DNA of 64,000 nucleotides, from the NCBI RefSeq assembly GCF_000152745.1, contig NZ_CH672428.1, positions 2,996,725 through 3,060,724 on the forward strand, in the 5' to 3' direction. The translations under genes and the position numbers were made by a program. Position 1 is the first letter of the stretch. Every line of letters begins with the position of its first letter. The stretch is from Oceanicaulis sp. HTCC2633 (lineage in GTDB: Bacteria > Pseudomonadota > Alphaproteobacteria > Caulobacterales > Maricaulaceae). Under the pieces are notes generated by a model. The model saw only the letters and a program-made list of their open reading frames with translations, was not told where the DNA came from and ran no database searches. Shown here one piece after another: positions 16,887-19,723 of this stretch.

Positions 16887-18671
16887 ATGAGCTACCGCGC
16901 CCCGGTTCGCGATATCCGTTTCGCCCTGGAAGAAGTTGCCGCGCTCGACAGCGTCAACGCCACAGGCGCCTTTCCGGAATTCTCCTCGGACCTGACGCCC
17001 GCCATTCTGGATGAGGCCGCCAAGCTCGCCAATGACGTTCTGGCCCCGATCAACCGCACCGGCGACCAGCAGGGCTGCACGCTCAAGGACGGTGTCGTGA
17101 CCACGCCGGACGGCTTCAAGGAAGCCTACGCCCAGTTCGTTGAAGGCGGCTGGCAGGGTCTGCAATTCCCCACCGATATGGGCGGGATGGGCCTGCCCAA
17201 GGCGCTGGGCTGCGCGCTGATGGAGATGCTGCAATCGTCCAACATGGCGTTCGGCCTGGGCCCGATGCTGTCCTTTGGCGCGATTGAATCCCTCATCGCC
17301 GTCGGCTCTGAGGAACAGCGCGCGCTCTATCTGGGCAAGATCCTCTCGGGCGAATGGTCGGCGACCATGAACCTGACCGAGCCGGGCGCCGGGTCGGATG
17401 TGGGTGCGCTGCGCACAAAGGCGGAACCCAATGGCGACGGTTCCTGGGCGATTTCGGGTCAGAAGATCTACATCACCTGGGGCGAGCATGACTGCGCCGA
17501 GAACATCATCCATCTGGTGTTGGCGCGCACGCCGGACGGGGCTGCGGGCACCAAGGGCATTTCGCTGTTCATCGTGCCGAAATTCATCCCCGACGCGGAC
17601 GGAAATCCGGGCGAGCGCAATGCGCTGCAGGCCATCGGGCTGGAACACAAGATGGGCATTCACGGCTCGCCCACCTGCACGATGGAATATGACGGCGCCA
17701 AGGGCTGGCTTCTGGGCGACGAGTTCAAGGGCATGGCCGCCATGTTCATCATGATGAACTCCGCGCGCCTGAATGTGGGCGTGCAGGGGGTCGGCATCGC
17801 CGAGCGCGCCTATCAGCAGGCGCTGGCCTATGCCAAGGACCGCAAGCAGGGCCGCGCCATCAACATGGACGATCACGGCCCGCACGCCATCATCCACCAC
17901 CCCGATGTGCGTCGCACCCTGGCGGTGATGAAGGCGAAGATCGAGGCCGGTCGCGCCATCTGCTATCACGCCGCCGTCGAAGCCGATCTGGGTGAGCACC
18001 ATGACGACGCCGACGAGAAGGCCTGGTCCAAGCGCCGTGAGGATCTGATGATCCCGATCGCCAAGGCCTGGTGCACCGATATGGGCGTGGACGTGGCCTC
18101 CATGGGCGTTCAGGTGCATGGCGGCATGGGCTTCATCGAGGAGACCGGCGCCGCCCAGCATCTGCGCGATGCCCGGATCGCTCCGATCTATGAAGGCACC
18201 AACGGCATTCAGGCCATCGACCTTGTGGGCCGCAAACTGGCGCGCGATGCCGGGACGGCCGTGGGCGAGCTGATCGAGGATGTGCGTCAGACCATCGAGG
18301 ACTGCATCACCAGCTCGAACCCCGAGCTTCCGGTGCTGGCCGAGGCGCTGAAACCCGCCTGCGATGCGCTGGAAGAAGCGACGGCCTTCATGCTCAAGGC
18401 GTCTGACGCGGACCGGCTTGCCGGCGCCACGGCCTATCTCAAGCTTGCGGGCGATGTGACGGGCGGCTGGCTGCTGTGCGTGGGCGCCGTGGCGGCCCAG
18501 CGCAAGATCAAGGAAGCCGATGGCGATGAAAGCTACGCGCAGGCGCGCATCTCCATCGCCAACATCTTCGCCCAGAGCGTGCTCACCGGGGCCCAGGGCC
18601 TGCTGGGTGAGATCCAGATCGGTTACGACCCGATCTTCGCGCCGGGCGAAACGGTCTTGGAAAGCGCCTGA
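16887..18671 (+). CDS. Acyl-CoA dehydrogenase (long, DmdC/AcdA-like)
   Basis: A 594-residue FAD-dependent acyl-CoA dehydrogenase of the long class with an extra N-terminal domain (about residues 1-40, AcylCoA_DH_N type) and a C-terminal extension. FAD/substrate motifs TMNLTEPGAGSDVGALRTKA and GGMGFIEETGAAQ are present, and the catalytic base is E436 in APIYEGTNGIQAIDL. Relatives act on medium/long acyl-CoA or on methylmercaptopropionyl-CoA (DmdC), a relevant substrate in marine bacteria; I cannot decide between them. It ends eight bases before the convergent guanidinium exporter gene. Confidence 0.9.
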   Translation: MSYRAPVRDIRFALEEVAALDSVNATGAFPEFSSDLTPAILDEAAKLANDVLAPINRTGDQQGCTLKDGVVTTPDGFKEAYAQFVEGGWQGLQFPTDMGGMGLPKALGCALMEMLQSSNMAFGLGPMLSFGAIESLIAVGSEEQRALYLGKILSGEWSATMNLTEPGAGSDVGALRTKAEPNGDGSWAISGQKIYITWGEHDCAENIIHLVLARTPDGAAGTKGISLFIVPKFIPDADGNPGERNALQAIGLEHKMGIHGSPTCTMEYDGAKGWLLGDEFKGMAAMFIMMNSARLNVGVQGVGIAERAYQQALAYAKDRKQGRAINMDDHGPHAIIHHPDVRRTLAVMKAKIEAGRAICYHAAVEADLGEHHDDADEKAWSKRREDLMIPIAKAWCTDMGVDVASMGVQVHGGMGFIEETGAAQHLRDARIAPIYEGTNGIQAIDLVGRKLARDAGTAVGELIEDVRQTIEDCITSSNPELPVLAEALKPACDALEEATAFMLKASDADRLAGATAYLKLAGDVTGGWLLCVGAVAAQRKIKEADGDESYAQARISIANIFAQSVLTGAQGLLGEIQIGYDPIFAPGETVLESA

Positions 18672-18679
18672 TCCTGAAC

Positions 18680-19006
18680 TTAGGGGGCGTTGCCGGTCGT
18701 CAGCTTGAGGCCGACAATGCCCGTCAGGATCAGCACGACGCTGAGCACGCGCCCGAGCGTCAGGGCGTCGCCAAAGGCGATGACCCCGACAATGAACGCG
18801 CCCATGGCTCCGATACCGGTCCAGATGGCGTAGCCCGTGCCCAGCGGAAGGCTGCGCAGGGCCAGGGTCAGAAGCGCAAAACTCGCCAACATGCTCACCA
18901 GCATGATCAGGGTCGGAACTGGGCGGCTTAATCCGTCGGACTGCTTCATCATGCTCGCCCAGAGCACTTCAAGTAGTCCGGCTCCCAGTAAATAAATCCA
19001 GGCCAT
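18680..19006 (-). CDS. gdx: SMR family guanidinium exporter (Gdx/SugE)
   Basis: A 108-residue small multidrug-resistance protein with four transmembrane helices. E13 in GLLEVLWASMMK is the coupling glutamate and W16 follows it, as in the Gdx/SugE branch; LPLGTGYAIWTGIGAMGAF is also characteristic of this branch rather than EmrE. Gdx exports guanidinium in exchange for protons. Its leader contains a guanidine-II riboswitch, which independently supports the substrate. A single gene of this type can form the antiparallel dimer on its own. The start at 19006 has GAAAGG eight bases upstream. Confidence 0.92.
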   Translation of the reverse strand: MAWIYLLGAGLLEVLWASMMKQSDGLSRPVPTLIMLVSMLASFALLTLALRSLPLGTGYAIWTGIGAMGAFIVGVIAFGDALTLGRVLSVVLILTGIVGLKLTTGNAP

Positions 19007-19009
19007 GGT

Positions 19010-19071
19010 CGAAACCTTTCAGGTTTCGGGCCGTCCCGAATGCTGATCCCGAGTGCGGGGAGGTCGTCCTC
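19010..19071 (-). promoter_or_regulatory. Guanidine-II (mini-ykkC) riboswitch with SD-sequestering hairpin
   Basis: On the minus strand two hairpins with ACGR loops stand in tandem: GAGG-ACGA-CCTC (19071 to 19060) and TTCGGG-ACGG-CCCGAA (19040 to 19025), separated by 19 bases. This pair of ACGR loops is the defining feature of guanidine-II riboswitches. Immediately after, CGAAACC (19028-19022) can pair with GGTTTCG (19016-19010), a perfect 7-bp stem that buries the Shine-Dalgarno GAAAGG (19020-19015). It shares four bases (19025-19028) with the second ligand hairpin, so the two cannot form together. Guanidine binding would therefore open the gene for translation. The hairpins are seen; the switching mechanism is inferred. 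Confidence 0.88.
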
Positions 19072-19117
19072 TCAGGCGGAGATGGCGCTTGATGCGTCCT
19101 GCGTCAAGCCGGTCCGG

Positions 19118-19507
19118 CTAGATCCAGAACCCGGTCGGGTCAGGGTGCGGGCGGCCGTCCACAAGACGGATCAGCCCCACCGCTGACCGGATGGCGAGCC
19201 AGATGGTCGCCAGCAGCAGGATCAGCCCGCCGATCAGGAAGATCCAGGTCAGCGCGCCGACCACCACCATCGCCAGCCAGTACCAGAAGGTGCGTATCTG
19301 GAACTGAAAATGGTTCTTCACCAGCGGATCGGCGTTGTCCTTGCGCACATAGGCGAGGATGGCCGCAATCAGAACGGTGACGCCATTGCTGATGCCAACC
19401 AGCAGCAAGGCATAGTTGATGACGGCCAGGACGCGGTCGCTATTCTGGTCGCGCGCGCTGTCGGGTGCGTCATCGGGGTTCGGGGGAGAGGTGTCTGTAG
19501 GGGCCAT
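19118..19507 (-). CDS. DUF4870-like small membrane protein
   Basis: A 129-residue protein with a polar, Pro/Asp-rich N-terminus (~25 residues) and three predicted membrane helices. The pattern DRVLAVINYALLLVG ... NADPLVKNHFQFQIRTFWYW resembles DUF4870/Tic20-like membrane proteins, in which the basic-aromatic 'KNHFQFQ' segment between helices is conserved. The function is unknown. The ATG at 19507 is supported by GGAG about ten bases upstream. It lies immediately upstream of the riboswitch region on the same strand but the riboswitch hairpins begin only after its stop codon. Confidence 0.7.
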   Translation of the reverse strand: MAPTDTSPPNPDDAPDSARDQNSDRVLAVINYALLLVGISNGVTVLIAAILAYVRKDNADPLVKNHFQFQIRTFWYWLAMVVVGALTWIFLIGGLILLLATIWLAIRSAVGLIRLVDGRPHPDPTGFWI

Positions 19508-19723
19508 GCCGGATCTCCGCAATTTGCCGCTGCGCCTTCTGTGACCTTTATAACTCAGCCGTCACGGCTTGGTTGCGTCAAGTGAAGACCCTGTCAGCTG
19601 TCATCTTGTCAGGCGCCAATAAGCATTGTGAACTGGGGCTTGCGAGTTAATCTTTAACTTTCTCCGTGTGATTGTGGCGCGATCAATGTGCTGGGTTAAC
19701 AGGTTTGTTTAAAAGGGCTTTCC

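Follow-up and report, generated by a model that had tools for sequence, protein, structure and literature searches.

A predicted guanidine-II riboswitch that may control translation of a Gdx-type exporter gene in Oceanicaulis through mutually exclusive hairpins

Introduction

In the guanidine-II leader of Gloeobacter violaceus, 6 bp separate the second aptamer hairpin (P2) from the ribosome site, and in the account of Huang, Wang and Lilley a stem loop overlapping both could form, which would exclude the folded riboswitch (2017, PMC5486947). For Escherichia coli gdx (sugE), the published descriptions locate the anti-Shine-Dalgarno (anti-SD) sequence in the linker between P1 and P2 and propose a translational ON switch (PMC9094411, PMC9300104). 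For the Pseudomonas aeruginosa member, guanidine-dependent translation initiation is reported on the basis of RelE cleavage, with a K1/2 of 2.2 mM (PMC9561414). A class-wide census of anti-SD position was not found in the open-licence papers searched.

Here we describe a guanidine-II leader from Oceanicaulis sp. HTCC2633, located within a 64,000-nucleotide stretch of contig NZ_CH672428.1 that is referred to below as the window. It resembles the G. violaceus leader in that a hairpin overlapping both P2 and the Shine-Dalgarno (SD) sequence excludes the folded riboswitch, and the same ON switch is predicted. This mechanism has already been proposed for G. violaceus and is not new, but the alternative stem loop is presented there as a possibility and without a comparative test, and our comparison is with its description rather than its sequence (PMC5486947). 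With the E. coli leader (L209 in our collection), the window shares two ACGR hairpins before a Gdx exporter and a proposed translational ON switch, whereas the E. coli anti-SD is assigned to the linker and that of the window is predicted to consist of the P2 3' arm plus spacer. The E. coli leader also has a longer P1 and a computed fold without a linker hairpin. The P. aeruginosa member, in which initiation depends on guanidine as is predicted for the window, differs in its OFF state, which is drawn as a P0 helix between the 5' and 3' flanks (PMC9561414).

Results

All riboswitch and gdx features described below are on the minus strand. The window contains a match to the Rfam covariance model RF01068 (Guanidine-II) at 19075-19026, which covers model positions 1-48 of 48 and scores 42.5 bits versus a gathering score of 32. 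It was the single RF01068 match found in a search of this genome, while guanidine-I and guanidine-III yielded 0 matches in the same genome. The original prediction had assigned the element to this class from two ACGR-loop hairpins, naming the lack of an above-threshold Rfam match as the outcome that would speak against it; the match is above threshold and both hairpins are as described, in sequence and in the fold. P1 (GAGG-ACGA-CCUC, 19060-19071; Rfam alignment and fold) has the loop ACGA at 19067-19064 and P2 (UUCGGG-ACGG-CCCGAA, 19025-19040) has the loop ACGG at 19034-19031. The Rfam alignment supports P2 as far as 19026, with the sixth pair taken from the sequence. Directly 3' of P1, the fold and the relatives also place a 4-bp linker hairpin, PL (CCCG-CACU-CGGG, 19048-19059), which the original prediction did not include. 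The AUG of a Gdx-type SMR gene (19006-19004) is found 19 nt downstream of the RF01068 match end, and 8 nt before this AUG is a probable SD, GAAAGG (19015-19020), which has complementarity to 16S rRNA. The 16S tail pattern GGATCACCTCCTTTC had 0 occurrences in this genome, perhaps being masked or different. In the fold, UCAG at 19046-19043 could additionally pair with CUGA at 19022-19019, a possible P2 extension (19019-19046) that would take the GA of the SD. A search of 18600-19600 found no sigma-70-like promoter. Judging from its sequence, the element is a well-formed guanidine-II riboswitch, with the toxic compound guanidine as its probable ligand.

The gene downstream (18680-19006; ORF, profiles and alignment) has an AUG start and encodes 108 aa. 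Its product matches PF00893 (SMR) in Pfam with 92.6 bits. The top match among solved structures is PDB 6wk5, which we take to be Gdx-Clo, with 106 bits over residues 1-104 of 108, whereas no EmrE chain scored above 54 bits. Aligning the product with five family members showed E13, W16, S42, Y59, and W62 to be invariant, and these are the residues named for Gdx-Clo (PMC9574504). According to the same source, S42 and the conserved Trp occur in EmrE as well, so these positions alone cannot separate SMR subtypes and the 106 versus 54 bits discriminates better. The Gdx-type SMR target of the original prediction thus agrees with the PF00893 match, the structure scores, and the five kept residues. 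The score of the product against the NCBIfam SugE equivalog NF008512, a model narrower than Gdx, is below the cut-off (109.4 versus 126 bits), and this is the best of the 21 SMR models listed. "Gdx-type" is therefore a name that we strongly infer, and the product would be a guanidinium exporter by type.

The riboswitch and gdx are flanked by convergent fadE-like and DUF4870 genes, with a stop codon facing them on either side. Alignment with six congeners revealed one uninterrupted extra stretch in the window of ~445 bp, at ~18672-19117, comprising gdx, the riboswitch, and ~40 nt upstream, and from this empty-site comparison we delimit an inserted cassette at 18672-19117, with ends good to a few bases. 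Searches of the 14 congeners gave no match to the riboswitch (E<=0.001) and none to the protein (E<=1e-15). A fadE orthologue was found in 13 congeners, with gdx at 0 of these 13 loci; the DUF4870 gene follows fadE within ~20 bp in 11 of them, i.e. the site is empty, and in the other 2 the interval holds different genes, esterase-like and ThuA-like (L218:3328-4410, L219:662-1477). Because two congeners carry other genes there, the fadE/DUF4870 site may be insertion-prone. The simplest reading of these alignments is that the cassette was gained in this lineage. Inside the insertion there is also an inverted repeat without a U-run, GCTTGA...TCAAGC (19087-19109), soon after the DUF4870 stop in the minus-strand sense.

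The predicted OFF hairpin, P3 (CGAAACCU-GAA-AGGUUUCG, 19010-19028), was identified from sequence and fold and by shuffle and swap tests. The original prediction described it as a perfect 7-bp hairpin that contains GAAAGG and overlaps the second ligand stem by four bases. The overlapping hairpin is real, but it has 8 bp and a 3-nt loop, or 7 bp with the last U-A pair open, and GAAAGG does lie within it, but with GAA as the loop and AGG alone paired in the stem. The four-base overlap is CGAA (19028-19025), which is common to P3 and the P2 3' arm, so P2 and P3 cannot coexist and the exclusion of ligand-bound and SD-hidden folds was correctly foreseen. P3 is beyond chance expectation. When the SD and P2 arm were fixed, the remaining spacer was shuffled, and Watson-Crick pairs were counted, a P2-overlapping helix of at least 7 pairs arose in 43 of 20000 shuffles and one of at least 8 pairs in 2 of 20000. 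When scored by energy, with wobble pairs allowed, loops of 3-14, and 200 shuffles, P3 reached -10.1 kcal/mol versus -3.9 +/- 3.0 in shuffles (p=0.025). Likewise, no differing P2 arm of other leaders, when swapped against the window's spacer, matched the strength of its own helix (mean -3.5, rank 0.0).

We then modeled the leader in 24 transcript contexts, i.e. combinations of transcript ends. P3 was favoured in the ligand-free computed fold in 22 of 24 contexts, and its occupancy in the free ensemble was 0.49-0.97 in 23 of 24 and 0.01 in the remaining one, which is the shortest. Enforcing P1 and P2 cost 0.25-4.4 kcal/mol relative to the free ensemble across the 24 contexts; the modeled P2 and P3 energies are near balance, as expected for a ligand-driven switch. 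Even when P1 and P2 are enforced, the SD remains partly paired in the nearest-neighbour model, its GA with the P2 extension and its GG mostly with other bases. A base-by-base check of two contexts with P1 and P2 forced paired G19020 and A19019 with the P2 extension (C19045, U19046), and G19016 and G19015 mostly with the CC right before the AUG or with coding bases. Mean openness of the six-base SD was 0.20-0.41 with P1 and P2 enforced versus 0.33-0.53 in the free ensemble, being lower in 23 of 24 contexts, whereas the AGG of the SD was somewhat more open with P1 and P2 in 16 contexts, equal in 1, and less open in 7. Opening of the SD-to-AUG region was eased by 0.6-3.3 kcal/mol with P1 and P2 formed (18 contexts). 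In the standard context, which is the transcript context applied to all leaders, this leader gained 0.8, no more than its shuffles did (0.8 +/- 1.3, p=0.30). Folding the E. coli K-12 leader in this way gave a gain of ~1.4 kcal/mol (6.4 versus 5.0), which does not discriminate between the models. A translational ON switch is most likely and the best reading of these computations, but it is less clear than first claimed: the fold with P2 formed pairs much of the SD, and the gain is that of shuffles. The description of the switch as "clear" is weakened in this way but not refuted, because the folding model leaves out the ligand, the loop-loop contact, and the ribosome.

To place the window among other leaders, RF01068 matches at E<=0.001 were collected from 6 of 137 family genomes (4 above cut-off), 67 of 398 order-sample genomes (58 above cut-off), and 39 of 385 class-sample genomes (35 above cut-off), all three scans having been run with stricter filters that lost some weak matches. 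Among named loci that encode a relative of the protein, the best 80 gave 29 RF01068 matches, which lie in 28 loci. The alphaproteobacterial host that had been proposed for the window is also supported. In total, 136 RF01068 places were entered, some below the gathering score, with two of the 29 matches from named loci, in L092 and L105, omitted as copies of L004 and L072. Of these, 7 were unparsed (no start codon found, stem mismatch, or locus cut short), 1 was a duplicate, and 7 were dropped, 6 because the spacer fell outside 10-40 nt and 1 because P1 was misplaced. The 121 leaders left were clustered at 80% identity into 79 non-redundant leaders, kinship below 80% being ignored in the statistics; judged by record title or search scope, 71 are alphaproteobacterial and 8 are others (L111, L127, L139, L143, L144, L145, L158, and L162). 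Two side observations emerged from the collected loci. In Brucella thiophenivorans (L099) there are two guanidine-II matches ~800 bp apart, 1621-1664 and 2441-2483, the second directly before a Gdx-type gene, and in the class set eight guanidine-II leaders (L169, L171, L172, L180, L187, L188, L190, and L195) precede ORFs of 269-281 aa, which are too long for SMR exporters. A promoter at the P1 edge was also considered, as TATAAT-like boxes are present there in 31 of 79 leaders versus 22.8 expected from shuffles, but this signal is weak and was left unused.

Across the 79 leaders, the mean SD-to-AUG gain with P1 and P2 was 2.72 kcal/mol versus 0.65 with shuffled spacers (Wilcoxon 2e-8); the gain exceeded 1 in 48 leaders and reached p<=0.05 in 25 (60 shuffles each). 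The original prediction had proposed looking for the overlapping hairpin in related species, and a helix overlapping the P2 3' arm was indeed present at p<=0.05 in 14 of 79 leaders and at p<=0.01 in 6, including L060 (UGGCCUC/GAGGCCA), L108 (CGGCCCU/AGGGCCG), L162 (CCGGCUUUUC/GGAGAGCCGG), and L177 (ACGACCCU/AGGGUCGU) as examples, while within the window's family the corresponding helices of L002 and L004 reach p=0.060 and 0.055. On the other side, a swap of P2 arms across all 79 leaders was not significant (Wilcoxon p=0.07), with 10 of 79 in the best tenth, and the wider claim of P2 as anti-SD stands on the shuffle tests. The predicted main partner of the SD-to-AUG region was the P2 3' half in 29 leaders, the spacer in 29, coding sequence in 8, the linker or P1 3' arm in 6, the 5' flank in 6, and the P2 5' arm in 1; any fold favours a partner that is close by. 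From the 29 and 29 of 79 it follows that in most leaders this role falls to the P2 3' half and the adjoining spacer together, and not to P2 by itself. In the window itself the main partner is the spacer (3.6 versus 3.5 expected pairs).

The leaders also differ in the region beside P1. A hairpin at the place of PL, with 3 or more Watson-Crick pairs and a start no further than 2 nt from P1, was found in 23 of 27 leaders with a short P1 (5 bp or fewer) versus 7 of 52 with a longer P1 (Fisher 4e-10), at a position that is unpaired in the Rfam consensus structure. When the 27 short-P1 leaders were aligned, the hairpin sequence proved nearly fixed (CCUC-CCC-N-GGG), with one clear UCC/GGA change (L086), and it is therefore supported by its association with a short P1 and not by covariation. 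Against shuffled linkers, it reached 0.05 in just 3 of these 27 leaders. One possible role of the hairpin is to tie up the anti-SD-like CCUCCCC in the ligand-bound fold.

Discussion

Taken together, we consider it quite probable that translation of a guanidinium exporter is controlled at this locus by a guanidine-II (mini-ykkC) riboswitch, which acts as an ON switch through P2/P3 exclusion. Without guanidine, the mRNA would tend to form P3, consuming the P2 3' arm and pairing the AGG of the ribosome site. With guanidine, the ACGR loops would bind two guanidinium ions, which together with the loop-loop contact would stabilise P1 and P2; with both held in place, P3 would be blocked, ribosome loading would become easier, and exporter synthesis would follow the presence of guanidine. 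What the analysis shows is the family match, the hairpins, their overlap and exclusion, and the gene type, while guanidine binding, the direction and size of the response, and the exact ribosome site are inferred. If P2 is the anti-SD, its loop and 3' arm re-pair with the ribosome-site region, and ligand and ribosome site would therefore compete for the same bases. It is also possible, and we suggest it tentatively, that in guanidine-II leaders of Alphaproteobacteria and the like the usual anti-SD is P2 plus the adjoining spacer rather than the linker or 5' flank, with the window as a clean case and with short-P1 leaders bearing an extra hairpin stacked on P1.

The same class of riboswitch could hide its SD mainly through a different partner, either the 5' flank as P0 or the P1 3' arm and linker, leaving P3 secondary. 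This would agree with published work that assigns the anti-SD either to the linker (PMC9094411, PMC9300104) or to a P0 helix (PMC9561414), and our own predictions name the linker or P1 3' arm as main partner in 6 of 79 leaders and the 5' flank in another 6. In the window, a context that includes the 5' flank does allow GCCU upstream of P1 to pair with AGGU under enforced P1 and P2, but the resulting helix has 4 bp and P3 has 8, while the linker CCUCCCC can pair with GAAAGG only as CCU:AGG. Since the P2 3' half and the adjoining spacer are each the predicted main partner in 29 of 79 leaders, we find such an arrangement unlikely here. Less likely again is a formerly functional riboswitch that switches poorly in this genome, with a site that stays shut through P3, the P2 extension, and pairing downstream, or with low and constant expression. 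Such decay would fit the mean SD openness, which is not raised in the P1 and P2 ensemble, the gain not above shuffles, and the presence of the cassette in this genome alone of the 15 from the genus. Against it, the loops and stems of both hairpins are intact, as are the named SMR residues and the near-balanced pair of P2 and P3, and ribosomes usually overcome weak SD pairing of 3-4 bp. Apart from the existence of a stable hairpin, nothing favors control of transcription with P3 or another hairpin as terminator. P3 stops 3 nt short of the AUG and is followed by ACCAUGG without a U-run, and a terminator scan of 18600-19600 returned 0 terminator-like sites; we rejected this reading as very improbable. 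Translational control through P2/P3 exclusion is thus the reading that we retain.

The window itself is an ordinary annotation and a well-formed example of its class. This study contributes the census of 79 leaders, the finding of a third hairpin among short-P1 leaders, and a clean insertion that comprises both riboswitch and gene, the last of which suggests that a riboswitch and its gene can move together as a unit of ~445 bp. Three different OFF states have been drawn for the guanidine-II class in the accounts cited here, and the comparison of 79 leaders leans toward one of them, which could be tested with a few paired changes.
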